In this document: piece after piece, positions 181 to 7,333 of the stretch
Layout: each line of letters starts with the position of its first letter
How positions within the stretch are numbered: position 1 is the stretch's first letter
Origin: a virus
IMG/VR virus record: IMGVR_UViG_3300013131_000273
Location: 1-22,204 of that record
Length of the DNA stretch: 22,204 nucleotides
Strand: one strand, 5' to 3'
Position numbers and translations under genes: made by a program
The notes under the pieces: model-generated
The model's input: the letters and a program-made list of their open reading frames with translations, nothing else
Databases searched by the model: none
Told to the model about the DNA's origin: nothing

Positions 181-186
181 ATGAGT

Positions 187-1365
187 ATGGACCAGCCCGA
201 TCCTCGCGCTGAACTACGAACGAAAGACGGGCTGGAGTGGTGGGAGTGGAAGCGCGAGGACGGTGTTCGCCAGATCCACCTCACGGGCAAGGGTTGCCTC
301 TCTGATTCCGAAACCGACGCGCTCGCCGGGGAGTTCCTCACGGAATCCCACTACTCGGTCCTACTGAGAGACGAGGACGCCGACGTGTACCGACCGGAGT
401 CGGTTAGCGCGCTCGCTATGTTCGCCGGGGGCGAATCGGAACCCGTTGAGGAACGGCTACTCGTTTCGATCCGGCGGGGCGCGCTCCCGAAGTCGGTGAC
501 CCGTCCGGCCTGGGGGATTCTCCGCAAGGCGGCTCACGCCTCCAAGAATCGCGGCTTCGCGGCGGGGAAGGCGACCGCCGAAGGGCTGGGGAAAGACCCG
601 TCCCGGTTTATCTCGCGGGGCGGGGCGACGGCTCGGTACCTGACCCAAGACGGTATGCTCTCCGAGACTTCCGAGAGCAACATGGTTCTCTCGGGCATCG
701 TCGGTAACTTCAACTCGACCCCCCGGAACCCCTACTGCCGTCAGACGGCGTTTACTCGGGATAACTTCGACGAGTTCCTGACGGCGATGCCGCTCATCGA
801 GGAGGCGAACCTCGCTTTCAAGAAGCTCGTCCCGACCCGCTGGGAGAATCAGCGCCGCTTCGTTCAAGATACCGACCTCGCCAAGAAGGGGTGGACGCTC
901 GGCGATACGGTGTTCTCCACGATCACGGTCAACAAGAACTACCAGACCGGCGTCCACAAGGACGCCGGGGATCTCCTACGGGGATTCGGCAATCTGATGG
1001 TGCTGGAAGGTCCGACCCACGCTTACCGGGGCGGTCATACCGTCTTCCCGAAGTTCCGGGTCGCCGTCGATCTCCGGGAGGGGGATTTCCTGGGGATGGA
1101 CGTTCATGAGTGGCACGGTAACACGGCGCTCTCCTCCGCCGTCGAGGGGGAGGACGATTGGGAGCGGATCAGCGTCGTCTGCTACGTCCGGGTAGACATG
1201 ACGAAGTGCGGCACCCAGGAAGAAGAGTCCCAGAAGCACGAAACCTGGCAACAGCGCTGGCGCAATCCCCTAGAGCAGCACGCCTTCCGCCTAGAGGAGG
1301 ATCGCGTCTATCAGGAGGGGCTCGCCTACGCTTCTAGCGTACTGTTCAATACCGAGGAAACGTGA
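187..1365 (+). CDS. TET/JBP-family 2-oxoglutarate/Fe(II) DNA base dioxygenase
   Basis: This 392-residue protein is predicted to hydroxylate the 5-methyl group of a pyrimidine in DNA (thymine, or 5-methylcytosine if a C5-methyltransferase exists elsewhere), giving a 5-hydroxymethyl base. The double-stranded beta-helix motifs are visible: the HxD metal pair in GVHKDAGD (H257, D259), a GGHTVFP strand, the distal metal ligand in HEWHGNT (H310), and an Arg for 2-oxoglutarate in ERISVV (R327). The stretches FSTITVN, DAGDLLRGFG and RISVVCYVR match the TET/JBP subfamily rather than AlkB or prolyl hydroxylases. The N-terminal 130 residues are less conserved. The ATG at 187 is chosen because GGAGGT sits 6 bases upstream. 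It is the first gene of an operon whose next members act on hydroxymethylated bases, and its stop overlaps the kinase start by 4 bases. The family call is firm; the substrate base is not determined. Confidence 0.88.
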   Translation: MDQPDPRAELRTKDGLEWWEWKREDGVRQIHLTGKGCLSDSETDALAGEFLTESHYSVLLRDEDADVYRPESVSALAMFAGGESEPVEERLLVSIRRGALPKSVTRPAWGILRKAAHASKNRGFAAGKATAEGLGKDPSRFISRGGATARYLTQDGMLSETSESNMVLSGIVGNFNSTPRNPYCRQTAFTRDNFDEFLTAMPLIEEANLAFKKLVPTRWENQRRFVQDTDLAKKGWTLGDTVFSTITVNKNYQTGVHKDAGDLLRGFGNLMVLEGPTHAYRGGHTVFPKFRVAVDLREGDFLGMDVHEWHGNTALSSAVEGEDDWERISVVCYVRVDMTKCGTQEEESQKHETWQQRWRNPLEQHAFRLEEDRVYQEGLAYASSVLFNTEET

Positions 1366-1949
1366 ACGACCGTTCATCCGAGAAGAAGGTACTCTGGGTC
1401 CTGGGGGAGCCGGGGGTCGGTAAGACGACGCTCGTTCGCGAGCTAACGAGGGGGCTCGACCTCTCGTTCGTTGAGAATCCGAAGTGGACCCTAGCCGAAG
1501 GAATCGCTCTCGCCGGTCACTACAAGGGCGGTACGTTCGACGGTGCGGATACTGTCCCGTACAACGGCGTCGAGGCGGCGCTCCAGTACTGGGAGGGGAA
1601 CCTGCGCGATAGGTACCCGTTGACCCTGCTCGACGGGGATCGATTCTCGCACGATGGCGCTCGGCAGTTCTTCTCCGAGAGGGCGGCGACCTACGCGGTA
1701 CTGCTAACGGCCCCAGAGGAGCTAGTCGCCGCTCGTCGGAAGGAGCGGGGGTCGAACCAGTCCGCTACTTGGATCGCGGGACGCAAGACGAAGTCCGCCC
1801 GATTCTTTGAGGGCTTCGCTGATTCCCGGTCCCTAAAAATCGACGGTTCCCTGGCCTCCAGCGAAATCGCGGATCGGGTACGGGACCTACTTCAGAACGG
1901 GTCGGGCGTCAGCGAGTCGGACAACCCGCTCGCGTGGTTTGGGTCATGA
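1362..1949 (+). CDS. P-loop kinase of the 5-hydroxymethylpyrimidine DNA kinase type
   Basis: This 195-residue protein starts at GTG within a GTGA overlap with the dioxygenase. It has a Walker A loop (GEPGVGKTT, residues 15-23), a Walker-B-like Asp in TLLDGDRF, and a basic lid region with SNQSATWIAGRKTKSARF. These are features of the kinases that phosphorylate 5-hydroxymethyl-dU in phage DNA (HMUDK, studied in Salmonella phage ViI and Pseudomonas phage M6). The inferred role is to activate the hydroxymethyl group made by the dioxygenase as a phosphate or pyrophosphate leaving group. The helical domain found in some HMUDK proteins is absent here; a helical protein is encoded next instead. The kinase fold is certain from the P-loop. 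The DNA substrate is inferred from the lid motif and the neighbours. Confidence 0.75.
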   Translation: MNDRSSEKKVLWVLGEPGVGKTTLVRELTRGLDLSFVENPKWTLAEGIALAGHYKGGTFDGADTVPYNGVEAALQYWEGNLRDRYPLTLLDGDRFSHDGARQFFSERAATYAVLLTAPEELVAARRKERGSNQSATWIAGRKTKSARFFEGFADSRSLKIDGSLASSEIADRVRDLLQNGSGVSESDNPLAWFGS

Positions 1950-2878
1950 GCGACGTTCTGTCTCTGTTCGACGTTTCTCCGCCGAAGTTAGACGACCGCC
2001 CTTACCAGGAGCGGCCCCTGTTCGATTCGTTCGTCGCCTTCTCCAAGGCGCAACTCCACAGCGGGGACATCGACCCCGCCTACCCCGTTCTGAAAGAGAT
2101 TTACCGGAGGAGGGGGTACTCTCCAGACCAGGCGCTCTGGCACACGCTGCTCTACGTCACCTGGTACAACCTCGGGTCCGCTGAGCGGGCTTTCAGTCAG
2201 TATCCCGACCCGTCGAAGAGCCTCGACGAACCGCTCGTTCTACCTACCGGCACGGAACGTCGCTCGTTTCGGGGGAACGACCTAGCCCGATCCCATCTAA
2301 ACTCGCTGCTAGACTTGTCGAAGCCGCACGGGTCTCTGCTCGCCTGGTTGAGAAAAGCGAGCGAGAAGACCGGGGAAGAAGGCTGGGACGGGGTGCGAGA
2401 GGAGTTCCAGCGCGTCAAGTACGCCGGTCCCTGGAGCAGCTACAAGCTGGCGGACCTACTCGCCCACGTTCACGATTTTCCGATTACGGCTTCAGACCTG
2501 GGCATCGGCGGAGCGAGCGAGACGGCGGGTCCGATTCCGGGCATGGTAATTCTCACCGGATACGACTGGAAGAAATGCGCGACCGACCTCTCGGTCCAGC
2601 GAGAGCTTCTCGCTCATAGCCGGTCGAGGGGGGTACCGTTCTCGGGTCTCGACCAGCTGGAGACTTGCCTCTGCGACTTCAACTCGCTCTCCAAAGGGCG
2701 GTACTATGTCGGTCACGACATCGACCAGCAGATGGAGCACCTCAAGAGCGCCTCTGAGGACTTCTGGGAGGCTAGGACCGTCTCTTTCCCCTCTCGATAC
2801 TTAGGAGAGCGTAACGGATGGGTCGGAGTCCGTAAGCATCTCAAGAGCGTTTTTTTCTTGACCGGAGAGATACGATGA
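1946..2878 (+). CDS. Amino acid:DNA transferase-like protein (aGPT-PPlase2 type)
   Basis: This 310-residue, mostly helical protein starts at the ATG in an ATGA overlap with the kinase, which is preferred over an upstream GTG at 1934. The segment LDQLETCLCDFNS...KGRYYVGHDIDQQ (about residues 237-262) has the conserved Cys/Asn and GHDID residues I associate with the family first called alpha-glutamyl/putrescinyl thymine pyrophosphorylases. That family was later shown to transfer glycine or serine onto phosphorylated hydroxymethyl-dU in DNA. The proposed role is to displace the phosphate with an amino acid or amine. Its position directly behind the kinase fits. I cannot tell which amino acid is used, and it could instead be a detached helical domain working with the kinase, since the two helical families are related. 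Confidence 0.65.
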   Translation: MSDVLSLFDVSPPKLDDRPYQERPLFDSFVAFSKAQLHSGDIDPAYPVLKEIYRRRGYSPDQALWHTLLYVTWYNLGSAERAFSQYPDPSKSLDEPLVLPTGTERRSFRGNDLARSHLNSLLDLSKPHGSLLAWLRKASEKTGEEGWDGVREEFQRVKYAGPWSSYKLADLLAHVHDFPITASDLGIGGASETAGPIPGMVILTGYDWKKCATDLSVQRELLAHSRSRGVPFSGLDQLETCLCDFNSLSKGRYYVGHDIDQQMEHLKSASEDFWEARTVSFPSRYLGERNGWVGVRKHLKSVFFLTGEIR

Positions 2879-3717
2879 CCGATCTGTTCGGAGTGAAACA
2901 GGAGCCTCTCCTGGCGGACGCTACCCCGATTGAGATGGTGACGGATCGAATCTCAGTGAAGAGGGAGGACTTGTGCTCCCCCCATCCAGGCCCTTCCTTC
3001 AGCAAGATCCGGGGCGTGCTGAAGCACATTGAAAAGCGAGCCGAGAGCGAGATCGGGGTCCTCGATACCTACCACTCTAAAGCTGGTTGGGCGGTATCCT
3101 ACGTCTCCCACCACCTGGGCAAGAAGGCGCTCGATTTCTACCCTCGGTACAAAGACGACGGACCGGAGCTTCGCCTTCAGCAGAAGATGGCCGCGCAGTA
3201 CGGCGCGGAACTGTTTGAACTTACGGCGGGTAGGAGCGCAATTCTCTACCATCGCGCCCGTAAAGAGTGTAATAGCCGAGGGGCCTATCTTATGCCTAAC
3301 GCCCTGAAGCTACCGGAGACGGTGGAGGAGTGCGCCGAGGAAGTCCTACGCACTCCCGACCTTCACAGGTACGCAAACCTGGTGATCAGCGTATCGTCTG
3401 GAACGATAGCGTCGGGTGTCCTTCGCGGGTTCGCGAAAGCAAAAATCTATCCGAATGTCTGGCTCCACGCGGGTTACTCCCGCTCTGAGTCCGAGCTTCG
3501 TCGATATATCGCAACGAAAGTACCGAAGCTGACCTTCTGGCCCTCTGACGTGAATCTCGTCGATGAAAAGTATGGGTACAAGGACGCCGCGAAGGTCGAG
3601 GACCCGCCTCCCTTTCCCTGCAACCCCTACTACGATCTGAAGGCGTGGAAGTGGCTCGGGTCTAAAGGTGTGGGGGCGATGAAGGGTAGCGTCCTCTTCT
3701 GGAACATAGGAGCATGA
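2875..3717 (+). CDS. Fold-type II PLP-dependent enzyme (cysteine synthase/ACC deaminase-like)
   Basis: This 280-residue protein starts in an ATGA overlap. KREDL followed by PSFSKIRG is the usual beginning of a tryptophan-synthase-beta/ACC-deaminase-like domain, and K44 is the candidate Schiff-base lysine. A segment resembling the substrate loop (YHSKAGWAVSYVSHHLGKK) and a Ser/Gly-rich phosphate-binding turn (SVSSGTIASGVLRGF) follow in the expected order. At 280 residues it is shorter than typical members. Related PLP enzymes occur in phage thymine hypermodification clusters, where they act on the amino acid already attached to the base, for example by decarboxylation. That reaction is inferred from context here. 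Free amino acid metabolism is the alternative, but the tight operon placement argues against it. Confidence 0.7.
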   Translation: MTDLFGVKQEPLLADATPIEMVTDRISVKREDLCSPHPGPSFSKIRGVLKHIEKRAESEIGVLDTYHSKAGWAVSYVSHHLGKKALDFYPRYKDDGPELRLQQKMAAQYGAELFELTAGRSAILYHRARKECNSRGAYLMPNALKLPETVEECAEEVLRTPDLHRYANLVISVSSGTIASGVLRGFAKAKIYPNVWLHAGYSRSESELRRYIATKVPKLTFWPSDVNLVDEKYGYKDAAKVEDPPPFPCNPYYDLKAWKWLGSKGVGAMKGSVLFWNIGA

Positions 3718-4481: not shown

Positions 4482-6887
4482 ATGGATCTCGATGCATGGC
4501 TCGCGGACGACCTGGCTTCGGAAGAAACCCGAGAGGCGTACCAATACTTCATGAAGCCGGAGCCCCGCGACATCGTCGGGGACCTAGAAACGGACCCCGA
4601 GACGGGAATCCGCTCTCGGCTCATGAAGATCGGAATGGTGCGGGGGACAAAGGACGACGACAAGAAGACCGTCCGCGTCTACCTCGATCCGCTCCCTCAT
4701 ATCCGTCTTGACGAGGGGAAGCCGCTCCAGGGCTGGTACAAGTCGAAGCACGAGGAACCGGGGGTTCGTAACCGACCCTGCTTTACGGACGCGGTGCTCA
4801 CCCAGCCCTATGGAGGCTTCTGCTCGGTGGGTTGCGCGTTCGCGGTATACTCTGGGGAATGGATCGATACGCCATCCGGACCGAAGCTAGTAGACGCGAT
4901 CCGCATCGGGGACATCGTGTGGGGTCGAGCGCCCGAGGGAATCGTTCCGACTCGGGTCTCCGACAAGATCAAGAAATGGTCTCCCGACGGGATTCAGATC
5001 ACCCTTTCAAACGGACAGCGAGTTCGATTGAATGGGGAGCATCCGATCTGGGCTCCTCAAAAGGGAGGTTGGATCGAAGCCCGCGACCTTCGTCCTGGGG
5101 ACGAAGTGGAGAGCTTCTCCGATGACCTCATCCTGCGAGAAGTGCGGGAAGCCTACGGGTACAAGCGCGGGGAGGTTTTGCTCGGGTTGCAGGAAGATCC
5201 GATGGAGAGAATCCTTCAAAGAGCACCCGCATCCACGGAAGAAACCGCCTCGCGCCTGCGAACGATGTTCGGGTCTGACTCCGAATCGAAGTCGGAAGTT
5301 TTGCAAGGCTTGTTCTCCGATCGCGCGATCCGAGAGGATGCGAGGCAACGCGCGGGGCGAGAAGGAACAGAAGTTCTGCTCGTGCGGGGCACCTATCTTG
5401 CGTCGGAGGAAGATCTGCGAGATGTGTCTCGTCGAACACCGTCGAACAGCTCCTCGGGGCAATACGAACGGGCGTTCCTTGAAGGGGCAGAAGAAGTCCG
5501 CCGAATGGATGCGCAAGTTCTGGGTTCGTTTCCATTCCGAGCGGATGAAATGGCCTACGAAGGGGCTGCGTTCTCCCTACGAACGGAAGGACGGAACGCT
5601 CGTTTCTCTTCGTTCCAGCTGGGAGTGGAGGGTGGCTACCTTTCTCGACGCTATGACCGCTCGGAAGCTCCTCACGTCGTCGATGTCCGACCGATACCGG
5701 CAGGCTATGTCTACGATCTCGAAACGGCTACCGAGAACTACTACCTGAAGGGTTCGGAGAATCCGCGCTCTCCGGCTCTTCTCGTACACAACTGTTACGT
5801 CAACAGCGGCTTCAAGGGCTATCGGGGGTCAGGTCTGATCTCAGTCCCGATGAACTACGGCGCGCAGGTCCGTAACAGCCTCAAGAAGATGAAGACCTCG
5901 GCAGCGGGGTACTTCAGCTCCTTCACCGACCCCTTCCTCCCTCTGGAGGACGTGTACCACAACACCCAGGAAGGCGCTCAGGCGTTCGTCGATGAGAAGC
6001 TGCCCGTCTTCTTTCTCTCGCGGCTCAAGTACCCGTCCTGGGCTTACGACATCCTGCGGAAGAACCCCTACAGCTACGCACAGAAGAGTATCAACTGCGC
6101 GAACCCCGAGGACTGGAAGCGACTCTCTCCGGGAGCGGCTTCGCTTGCCGTTCACATGGAAGACATCCGCGAGCTGCGTAAAGCCGGTATTTACGTCAGT
6201 ATCCAGGTGAACCCCATCGTTCCCGGCGTCGTCAATCACGACGACGTGGAGCGGATCTTTGAGATGCTCGCAGAAGCCGGGGCGAATCACGTCATCGTCA
6301 AGTTCGTTGAGGCGGGGTACTCGTGGGCACCGGCGATGGCGGACAGAATCAAGTTCCGCTTCGGCGAGGAGAGGGGTCGGAAGTTTGAGAGCCTCTTCAC
6401 CGAGAACATCGGGGGTCAGCGGACCATCGTAGAGGACTACCGTCTAGAGGGGCACCGCCGCTACCAGAAGGCGGCTACCCGTCTGGGGATGACCTACGCG
6501 ACCTGCTACGAGTACCGGATGGAGCGGGATGCGACGGGTCGAGTGACTAACAAGACGGGGGTTTCCGTAGGCAAGGAGTTCCTGACGGCGGATCAGTGCC
6601 ACGGTCATCGCGTTCCGATGTTCACCCGGAACCACATCAACGAGCCTTTCCAAGAAGTCCAGGAGTGCCCCCCCACGGGTTGCCTGTCCTGCGCGGACGA
6701 CAACGGAGGTAAGTCTCGTTGCGGGTCAGACCTATTCGGCTCGGCCCCTGCTCTTCGGCTTCCTGACTTGAAGGTCGGCGTCTACGAAGAGGTACCCGAA
6801 AAACGTAAAAAGTCTCTGCCCGTGGTCGGCAACTCTGGCCCTTCGCTTCCGAAGTCGATGTCGGAGTTGTTCGATTTCGACGAGTAG
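4482..6887 (+). CDS. Radical SAM enzyme precursor interrupted by an intein
   Basis: The 801-residue precursor should splice to a 484-residue enzyme. C114 and C118 lie before the intein and C438 immediately after it; once joined they read CSVGCAFC, the CX3CX2C motif that binds the [4Fe-4S] cluster. The C-extein continues with features like the SPL/COG1533 radical SAM group (SSFTDPFLPLE, and INPIVPGVV-like strands written here as VNPIVPGVVNHDD). Near the end is a second Cys set, C729, C734, C737 and C747 in precursor numbering (CX4CX2CX9C), which may hold an auxiliary cluster or zinc. Radical SAM isomerases in phage M6-type clusters rearrange a glycyl-thymidine side chain, and a similar carbon-skeleton step is the working guess here. 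AAGGA lies 5 bases before the ATG. It is the last gene of the operon, followed by a 29-base gap. The radical SAM class is firm; the reaction is inferred. Confidence 0.85.
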   Translation: MDLDAWLADDLASEETREAYQYFMKPEPRDIVGDLETDPETGIRSRLMKIGMVRGTKDDDKKTVRVYLDPLPHIRLDEGKPLQGWYKSKHEEPGVRNRPCFTDAVLTQPYGGFCSVGCAFAVYSGEWIDTPSGPKLVDAIRIGDIVWGRAPEGIVPTRVSDKIKKWSPDGIQITLSNGQRVRLNGEHPIWAPQKGGWIEARDLRPGDEVESFSDDLILREVREAYGYKRGEVLLGLQEDPMERILQRAPASTEETASRLRTMFGSDSESKSEVLQGLFSDRAIREDARQRAGREGTEVLLVRGTYLASEEDLRDVSRRTPSNSSSGQYERAFLEGAEEVRRMDAQVLGSFPFRADEMAYEGAAFSLRTEGRNARFSSFQLGVEGGYLSRRYDRSEAPHVVDVRPIPAGYVYDLETATENYYLKGSENPRSPALLVHNCYVNSGFKGYRGSGLISVPMNYGAQVRNSLKKMKTSAAGYFSSFTDPFLPLEDVYHNTQEGAQAFVDEKLPVFFLSRLKYPSWAYDILRKNPYSYAQKSINCANPEDWKRLSPGAASLAVHMEDIRELRKAGIYVSIQVNPIVPGVVNHDDVERIFEMLAEAGANHVIVKFVEAGYSWAPAMADRIKFRFGEERGRKFESLFTENIGGQRTIVEDYRLEGHRRYQKAATRLGMTYATCYEYRMERDATGRVTNKTGVSVGKEFLTADQCHGHRVPMFTRNHINEPFQEVQECPPTGCLSCADDNGGKSRCGSDLFGSAPALRLPDLKVGVYEEVPEKRKKSLPVVGNSGPSLPKSMSELFDFDE
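4842..5792 (+). mobile_element. Intein with Ala at position 1, inside the radical SAM cluster motif
   Basis: The intein spans 317 residues (precursor 121-437). It starts AVYSGEWIDTPSG and ends LLVHN, with Cys+1 as the first C-extein residue. Block A-like (VYSGEWI, then LVDAIRIGDIVWG), block B (NGEHPIW, His187), block F (YVYDLETATENYYL, Asp412) and block G (H436-N437) are all present. Residue 1 is Ala, so the usual acyl shift at Cys1/Ser1 cannot occur. This matches class 2 (KlbA-type) inteins, in which Cys+1 attacks the upstream bond directly. Block F has Asp rather than the Cys of class 3. The borders are fixed because only this split restores CX3CX2C. About 190 residues between blocks B and F do not resemble an endonuclease in this frame, but another frame does. 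Codons such as cga, ttg and aat are commoner here than in flanking genes. Confidence 0.9.
5122..5748 (+). CDS. Out-of-frame homing endonuclease-like ORF nested in the intein, probably truncated
   Basis: This frame, shifted relative to the intein, encodes 208 residues from the ATG at 5122, with GGAG 10 bases upstream. It stays open further upstream to an ATG at 5032, but recognisable protein begins at MTSSCEKCGKP. Three zinc-knuckle units follow: C5/C8 with C20/C23, C46/C49 with C61/C64, and C86/C88 with C99/C102. Then comes GTLVSLRSSWEWRVATFLDA (E168), which resembles the opening of PD-(D/E)XK/EDxHD-type phage homing endonucleases. The expected later catalytic part (a PDF-like strand and the following acidic or basic residues) is missing, because intein blocks F and G occupy that DNA in the other frame. 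Either this is a decayed endonuclease overprinted by the intein frame, or two compensating frameshifts separate it from an in-frame fusion. The in-frame intein translation over the same DNA contains no Cys. Confidence 0.6.
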   Translation: MTSSCEKCGKPTGTSAGRFCSGCRKIRWRESFKEHPHPRKKPPRACERCSGLTPNRSRKFCKACSPIARSERMRGNARGEKEQKFCSCGAPILRRRKICEMCLVEHRRTAPRGNTNGRSLKGQKKSAEWMRKFWVRFHSERMKWPTKGLRSPYERKDGTLVSLRSSWEWRVATFLDAMTARKLLTSSMSDRYRQAMSTISKRLPRTTT

Positions 6888-6916: not shown

Positions 6917-7333
6917 ATGACCTCCCCCGCGACATGGGAGTACGCCGGAACCGTCGTCCGAGTAGTGGACGGCGATACCGTGGTGCTCCGCCTCACCAAG
7001 ACGTTCACGCAGGAAATCGACTTCGGTTTCTTCGTGAAGGACTCGATGAGCCTCACGAAGTCTGCCGAGATTGACTTCCGGCTCGCGGGTATCAACGCCC
7101 CAGAGAAGGTCGGTCCCAACAAGACGAGGGGCGAGGCGTCCAAGCGAGCCCTTGAGAGTCTGCTCGCGCAGGGGAGCATCCGGGTCGTCAGCTACAAGCC
7201 CGACAAGTACGGGCGATGGCTCGCGGATCTCTACGTCACCCCGGCGGGCAAGCCTGAGTTCCACGTCAACGCGAAGCTAATCGAGCTAGGTCATGCCGTC
7301 CCGTGGGACGGTCGCGGCAAGCGCCCCTCGTGA
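6917..7333 (+). CDS. Staphylococcal nuclease-like (SNase/thermonuclease) protein
   Basis: This 138-residue protein has the OB-fold nuclease motifs in order: VVRVVDGDTVVL (D18, D20), FRLAGINAPEK (R55, E63) and KYGRWLADLY (R100). These correspond to D19/D21, R35, E43 and R87 of staphylococcal nuclease. The calcium ligand D40 is replaced by N60, a change also common among homologues. About 20 extra residues (30-50) lie between the first strands. No clear signal peptide precedes the domain, so it probably acts inside the cell on DNA or RNA, perhaps host nucleic acid. The start at 6917 has a poorly spaced G-run before it. It begins 29 bases after the modification operon and its stop overlaps the next small gene by 4 bases. 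Confidence 0.85.
   Translation: MTSPATWEYAGTVVRVVDGDTVVLRLTKTFTQEIDFGFFVKDSMSLTKSAEIDFRLAGINAPEKVGPNKTRGEASKRALESLLAQGSIRVVSYKPDKYGRWLADLYVTPAGKPEFHVNAKLIELGHAVPWDGRGKRPS

Follow-up and report, generated by a model that had tools for sequence, protein, structure and literature searches.

The window analysed here, a single IMG/VR virus record of 22,204 bp (IMGVR_UViG_3300013131_000273), carries a radical-SAM gene interrupted in frame by an intein, and a second open reading frame (ORF) is nested in the +1 frame of the intein DNA. We interpret this locus, with a probability of about three in four, as a phage intein with a homing endonuclease overprinted in the +1 frame of the same DNA, now degenerate. 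On this reading, the window is a degenerate member of a widespread overprinted-endonuclease intein architecture. Its features, all on the plus strand, are as follows.

4482–6887, plus strand: host gene, a radical-SAM protein with an in-frame intein (phrog_9252, 'DNA repair photolyase'; homologue of Pseudomonas phage M6 gp53)
4842–5792, plus strand: intein of 317 amino acids (aa), from Ala1 to VHN, followed by the +1 Cys; boundaries taken from M6 gp53 and intein-free relatives
4842–5121, plus strand: N-terminal splicing half of the intein, blocks A and B, ending in RPGDEVESFS; predicted local distance difference test (pLDDT) about 89–96 in the blocks, residues 1–90
5108–5111, plus strand: GGAG, a Shine-Dalgarno-like site read from the sequence, 10 nt ahead of the nested ATG, with a putative function
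5122–5748, plus strand: nested +1 ORF, relic homing endonuclease of 208 aa; ATG at 5122, stop at 5746–5748
5134–5190, plus strand: zinc knuckle 1 (CEKC...CSGC)
5257–5313, plus strand: zinc knuckle 2 (CERC...CKAC)
5377–5427, plus strand: zinc knuckle 3 (CSC...CEMC)
5611–5655, plus strand: first helix of a T7-endonuclease-I-like nuclease, RSSWEWRVATFLDAM; hidden Markov model match at residues 163–178 of the nested ORF
5656–5667, plus strand: probable deletion junction, where the nuclease core is missing between the RSSWE helix and the intein C half, as judged from absent motifs and from model confidence that is back up from residue 273
5658–5792, plus strand: C-terminal splicing half of the intein, blocks F and G; the nested frame crosses block F to its stop at 5746–5748

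The nested ORF lies wholly within the stop-free intein ORF, in the +1 frame, starting just past block B and ending at block F. It can be read as 238 aa from ATG 5032 or as 208 aa from ATG 5122; the latter, directly after block B, is taken as its natural start. Twelve cysteines form three pairs of CxxC/CxC motifs (C4 knuckles) and an RSSWE segment lies at 5611–5625, bearing out the sequence-only reading of this DNA, which had described a shifted frame with three cysteine sets and an RSSWE segment. That reading had also called the in-frame intein Cys-free and lacking nuclease motifs, and both points hold: the intein contains zero Cys, and no nuclease family match is listed for the host protein (Pfam, PHROGs, NCBIfam). 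Over its last 30 codons, the nested ORF is simply the intein C half read in +1.

The relation between the two frames was quantified by codon permutation. With synonymous codons of the intein frame permuted, the nested frame stayed open in 733 of 5000 trials, and its openness by itself is weak evidence; its six CxxC/CxC motifs were reached in none of the 5000. In the reverse permutation, synonymous codons of the nested frame were shuffled with protein and codon usage preserved. A mean of 8.7 intein-frame stops was then expected and no trial was stop-free (0/5000), whereas zero stops are observed; the third frame holds 5 stops versus 5.7 expected. The intein frame has therefore been kept open while the nested protein stayed recognisable.

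The splicing domain was modelled with AlphaFold2 on an alignment of the window intein and 20 relatives, using full-length rows. Confidence was high at approximately residues 1–97 and 273–317 and fell below pLDDT 50 at residues 108–272, a stretch that almost coincides with the residues lying over the nested ORF (94–272) and is predicted to be disordered. The confident part forms a Hint domain: intein-like and intein structures top the Foldseek list, and superposition on the Mtu RecA intein (2in0) gave a VIA-align Z of 19.4 and a root-mean-square deviation of 1.8 over 132 aligned residues. The splicing fold is thus confidently predicted to be intact. The Pfam Intein_splicing match has an E of 0.00077 but falls short of the family cut-off. 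The intein ends in VHN followed by Cys, giving the C-terminal HN and a +1 Cys/Ser/Thr residue. Class 2 inteins are defined by Ala1 and the lack of a block F branch Cys; the window intein has Ala1 and zero Cys from which a block F branch could form, and the zero Cys count also speaks against class 3. Its two halves share one 801-codon open frame with the host gene (4482–6887) rather than lying in separate genes, as they do in split inteins or fractured genes. An IMG/VR search with the intein protein found no relative.

The insertion boundaries come from sequence comparison with M6 gp53, in which GCAFCYVNSG corresponds to GCAF-[317 aa]-CYVNSG in the window protein. Among 45 IMG/VR relatives of the downstream half of the gene, two (L045 and L046) start inside the gene and were excluded; the uninterrupted junction, i.e., an empty insertion site, was found in all 43 that were checked, the closest at 85 percent identity. 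The intein sits between CAF and CYVNSG, ahead of the third Cys of the radical-SAM CxxxCxxC motif. Because this third Cys is also the +1 splicing residue, the unspliced protein has a broken radical-SAM motif.

Endonucleases hidden in this way are common in other phage inteins. Weak intein matches pointed to two phages with endonucleases in another intein frame. Relatives of the nested protein of Vibrio phage K391 occur in 41 phage records, in many cases under a gene annotated as helicase. All seven of the 41 loci inspected (Vibrio, Pseudomonas MR14, Corynebacterium phi673) carry the endonuclease in the +1 frame within one stop-free host frame; their third frame holds 15–24 stops. An IMG/VR scan with this helicase-intein endonuclease yielded 80 loci, the best 80 of 94, and 70 of these 80 were nested, all in +1 inside one stop-free intein ORF, with 3–33 third-frame stops. 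The ten un-nested loci comprise three that reach contig ends and have no stop in the longest other frame (L148, L153, L191), one with a single stop (L215) and six that seem free-standing (DUF559-type copies L175, L178, L184, L185, L194 and L197). In all 70 nested loci an HN or SN lies downstream, with Cys, Ser or Thr as the next residue; in one of the 70 the pattern first matched an earlier spot. Within the range L138–L217, many nested-endonuclease inteins precede CHH/CHx (DE|CH-type motif) in helicases, and several lie in clamp-loader-like ATPases.

Frame constraint is seen in this family too. The endonuclease frame is intact over the match in 69 of the 70 nested loci. The exception, L152 (3501–4094), is a second decaying case, with two stops in the endonuclease frame and the intein frame still open; it was excluded from the permutation set and from the close-pair comparison. 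Sixty of the nested endonucleases are distinct, from contigs of 28–68 percent G+C. Permuting these 60 gave a mean expectation of 9.6 intein-frame stops (range 2.9–19.0) against 0 observed in every one; stop-free permutations arose for 5 of the 60, in at most 5.3 percent of trials, and the third frame showed 17.9 stops versus 16.6 expected. Between K391 and Vibrio phage 1.088.O, 35 of the 41 nucleotide differences in the nested stretch fall at third positions of the endonuclease frame, changing 6/256 residues in the endonuclease frame and 34/255 in the intein frame. A second close pair has 7/204 and 23/203 changes, respectively, and 16 close IMG/VR pairs with overlapping membership together have 218 endonuclease-frame versus 476 intein-frame changes. 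In these close pairs of relatives, the intein frame is the more variable of the two. Shine-Dalgarno matches of at least 4 nt precede 38 of 61 nested starts versus 28 percent of 8674 control ATGs, and for matches of at least 5 nt the figures are 36 versus 8 percent; in the Vibrio loci the site is often GAGG, contained in the codons for DEV in block B. The endonucleases form an EDxHD/Vsr-like family: Pfam DUF559 was found in 42/42 members scanned, PDB sequence matches include 3hrl (5.7e-13) and I-Bth0305I (3r3p, 0.013), and a model with pLDDT 93.4 has I-Bth0305I as its top Foldseek hit (E 2.5e-3, TM 0.70 by target).

These comparisons bear on whether the endonuclease of the window was originally in frame and was shifted by two indels, real or from sequencing error, near 5120 and 5660. 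An incomplete nested product on a single virus contig would suit such an origin, but an accidentally shifted frame should hold about 8 stops where none is seen (0/5000 permutations stop-free), and the identical +1 geometry recurs in the 70 of 80 loci of another endonuclease family. A recent double frameshift or sequencing error is unlikely, and we assign the indel explanation a small probability overall. Overprinting, one of two origins that the sequence-only reading proposed, is supported by the stop-free intein frame and by the +1 nesting of those relatives; its term 'endonuclease gene' goes too far for an ORF that lacks the PD and ExK motifs. Its contrast with 'standard' inteins that carry the endonuclease in frame is unsafe, as out-of-frame endonucleases are common in the surveyed phage inteins.

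The type of nuclease once encoded was approached through the RSSWE segment. An RSSWE consensus query retrieved T7-endonuclease-I-like proteins, including L052 and L053, in which three zinc knuckles are followed by RSxWE and then by xPDFYL and IEIKG. A profile of five such zinc + RSxWE proteins (A2), with invariant PDF and ExKG motifs, matches T7 endonuclease I (PDB 1m0d) at 1e-11. Against a profile of 28 viral nucleases, the RSSWE helix of the nested ORF scored 10.4 bits. None of 20000 shuffles scored as high, and of the 189 stop-to-stop ORFs in the window that reach 60 aa this was the best (next, 2.5 bits); because the family was picked after the motif had been seen, these scores test the match and not the choice. 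The RSxWE helix carries the first catalytic Glu of T7 endonuclease I. The nested ORF shares the knuckles and this helix with the zinc + RSxWE family, and the match ends after FLDAM (nt 5655). The PD and ExK catalytic motifs are absent from it, and none of the other ORFs among the 189 scored supplies them, so it cannot be an active nuclease of the T7-endonuclease-I type; by its motifs it reads as the front part only of an endonuclease, a relic rather than an active enzyme. A comparison with EDxHD/PD-(D/E)XK enzymes had been suggested beforehand; T7 endonuclease I, which is not an EDxHD enzyme, is the nearest solved relative of the family profile. An EDxHD identity was considered first and was replaced after the T7 endonuclease I profile match; the nested ORF gives no DUF559 match even with E allowed to reach 1. 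A phmmer comparison of the nested ORF with eight RSxWE-type proteins gave no match, and MAFFT misplaced the RSSWE helix there.

The nested ORF might instead still work, as a small zinc-knuckle DNA-binding protein without a nuclease that binds a target site or regulates the host gene. Its start, Shine-Dalgarno-like site and stop are present and the knuckles look complete, but no homologue shows conservation of the short form and the final 30 codons amount to no more than intein C-half DNA read in +1; we consider a working gene improbable. It is also improbable that an intact overprinted endonuclease exists in the phage population, with the missing core reflecting assembly collapse or a local variant. 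The locus is known from a single record and intact forms exist in other families, whereas a collapse would need to leave both frames open.

Several observations weigh against a degenerate overprinted endonuclease. Over 5122–5660, codon likelihood is 17.9 log units better for the intein frame. Synonymous codon scores are intermediate in both frames, and adaptation is low in both and in the splicing domain (−0.014, −0.087 and −0.001) versus 0.326 in other genes. Low adaptation of this kind resembles that of a recent arrival; the codon-usage tests did not separate the two frames and are not counted as support. Searches for relatives of the nested ORF found none, whether by tblastn against phages (with E allowed to reach 10) and plasmids, by pattern scans of IMG/VR and GTDB, by an alignment led by the window ORF or by phmmer in PDB. 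The proposed T7-endonuclease-I-like identity rests on a 16-residue match and three zinc knuckles. In a survey of the zinc + RSxWE family, none of 80 loci (the best 80 of 152) was nested in an intein, which would leave the window as the sole nested example of the T7-endonuclease-I-like type found. A chance open frame in a GC-rich gene, which the 733 open permutations and the codon likelihood would allow, is very improbable given that neither the three knuckle pairs (0/5000) nor the RSSWE helix (0/20000) arises by chance.

The same survey serves as a contrast for the method, since it shows that the procedure does not produce nesting automatically. One of its loci, L296, falls by coordinates within a 146-codon frame, but this frame lacks intein motifs and the locus was left out of the count. 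Among the 48 of 80 RSSWE-query loci examined, no other-frame ORF spans the whole stop-to-stop nuclease ORF. Another locus of the zinc + RSxWE survey, L234 (on the same contig as L059), is a terminase-like gene in which an intein N half is fused in frame to an RSSWE nuclease that runs to a stop; the C half lies in a different frame, making this a split-intein locus with a window-type nuclease.

Terminase inteins provide a further comparison. All four loci inspected, including mycobacteriophage Chandler gp6, hide an HNH/endonuclease VII in the +2 frame. The Chandler gp6 intein is reported to splice, according to the part of PMC5050341 that concerns it, and a hidden endonuclease is therefore compatible with splicing.

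From the architecture and frame constraint observed here, we infer a history involving internal initiation, splicing, homing and a deletion. A ribosome reading the long frame would produce a precursor, which would splice and restore CxxxCxxC. A second initiation at an internal ATG after block B (here 5122) would once have made the endonuclease; the enzyme would have cut intein-free alleles, and repair would then have copied the element in full. Once the element was fixed, the catalytic core may have been lost through an in-frame deletion of some 75 codons that left both frames open, with the intein-frame linker as a predicted disordered loop tolerated by splicing.

Known systems resemble this arrangement in part. 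The helicase inteins of Vibrio, Pseudomonas and Corynebacterium phages share the +1 endonuclease, the start after block B, the end at block F and the stop-free intein frame; unlike the window, they encode an intact EDxHD/Vsr-like nuclease and are Cys1 inteins, mostly before CHH-type motifs. T7 endonuclease I shares the RSxWE helix with the window product and differs in having the PD and ExK motifs. In fractured genes, a free-standing endonuclease lies between the two parts of a split intein. Such genes likewise couple an intein to an unfused endonuclease, whereas the window intein is one continuous frame; L059/L234 corresponds to such a split form with a related RSSWE nuclease. The TerL6-f terminase inteins (Chandler gp6; PMC5050341, in the portion describing them) are also contiguous, with a linker that hides an other-frame endonuclease, and are reported to splice, but their nucleases are of the HNH/endonuclease VII type and in +2.

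In the passages of PMC11855218 on the ShiLan domain, the authors argue that an insertion with an out-of-frame HNH is not an intein. The ShiLan element, as those passages describe it, is alike in that its zinc-finger endonuclease is read in a different frame from the host gene, whose own frame stays open across the insertion. It is unlike the window in that no splicing domains are reported as detectable and the insertion is argued to be unspliced; the nested ORF of the window is bracketed by a complete Hint fold, which sets it apart from insertions of the ShiLan type, and has another nuclease type. On overlapping frames, the same passages cite Gorbalenya 1998 and a preprint about actinobacteriophage inteins of non-canonical architecture (Gosselin et al., bioRxiv 10.1101/2025.01.02.630785), which, to judge from its title and the way it is cited, may describe such frames in inteins. 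An excerpt of PMC12613952 mentions an out-of-frame HNH in a methylase. The nearest printed precedent we found is thus the out-of-frame HNH of the ShiLan element, without an intein, and part of the generality of the architecture may already be in print.

Taken broadly, it is an evenly balanced proposition that phage inteins have, besides in-frame fusion and free-standing genes, a third general option for carrying a homing endonuclease, namely overprinting. Unrelated nucleases would have entered this arrangement on three or more occasions (DUF559/EDxHD in +1, HNH/endonuclease VII in +2 and T7-endonuclease-I-like in +1), and the conserved block B codons (GAY GAG GTN) would often double as the Shine-Dalgarno. 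Overprinting would also be a plausible stepping stone from contiguous inteins to 'fractured' split inteins with free-standing endonuclease genes, since one intein-frame stop could convert a contiguous form into a split one. When an intein is read in a single frame, an endonuclease concealed in a different one is counted as absent. Nesting is suggested as the rule in the DUF559 family (70/80 loci, best 80 of 94) across 28 to 68 percent G+C. These loci form a large natural set of same-strand overlapping genes with split roles, catalysis in one frame and a stop-free loop in the other; they also suggest a testable way in which split inteins could arise and would account for odd intein linkers of low similarity. 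The window would show the end of this life cycle, in which the hidden endonuclease decays and the splicing frame is retained.

Further observations concern the host gene and its surroundings. The intein site (4830–4841 / 5793–5795) lies exactly before the third iron-sulphur Cys of the radical-SAM CxxxCxxC motif, and NCBIfam lists Rv2578c radical-SAM proteins that contain inteins as a family of their own; inteins may thus have targeted this class of protein repeatedly. Beside the intein gene, 181–3717 holds a cluster resembling a DNA hypermodification pathway, its members named from family matches:

181–1365: Tet/JBP oxygenase
1934–2878: amino acid:DNA transferase ADDT
2875–3717: PLP enzyme, after which the radical-SAM gene comes next

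Directly downstream of the intein-bearing gene, at 6917–7333, lies a staphylococcal-nuclease-like ORF (Pfam SNase, 1.7e-9).

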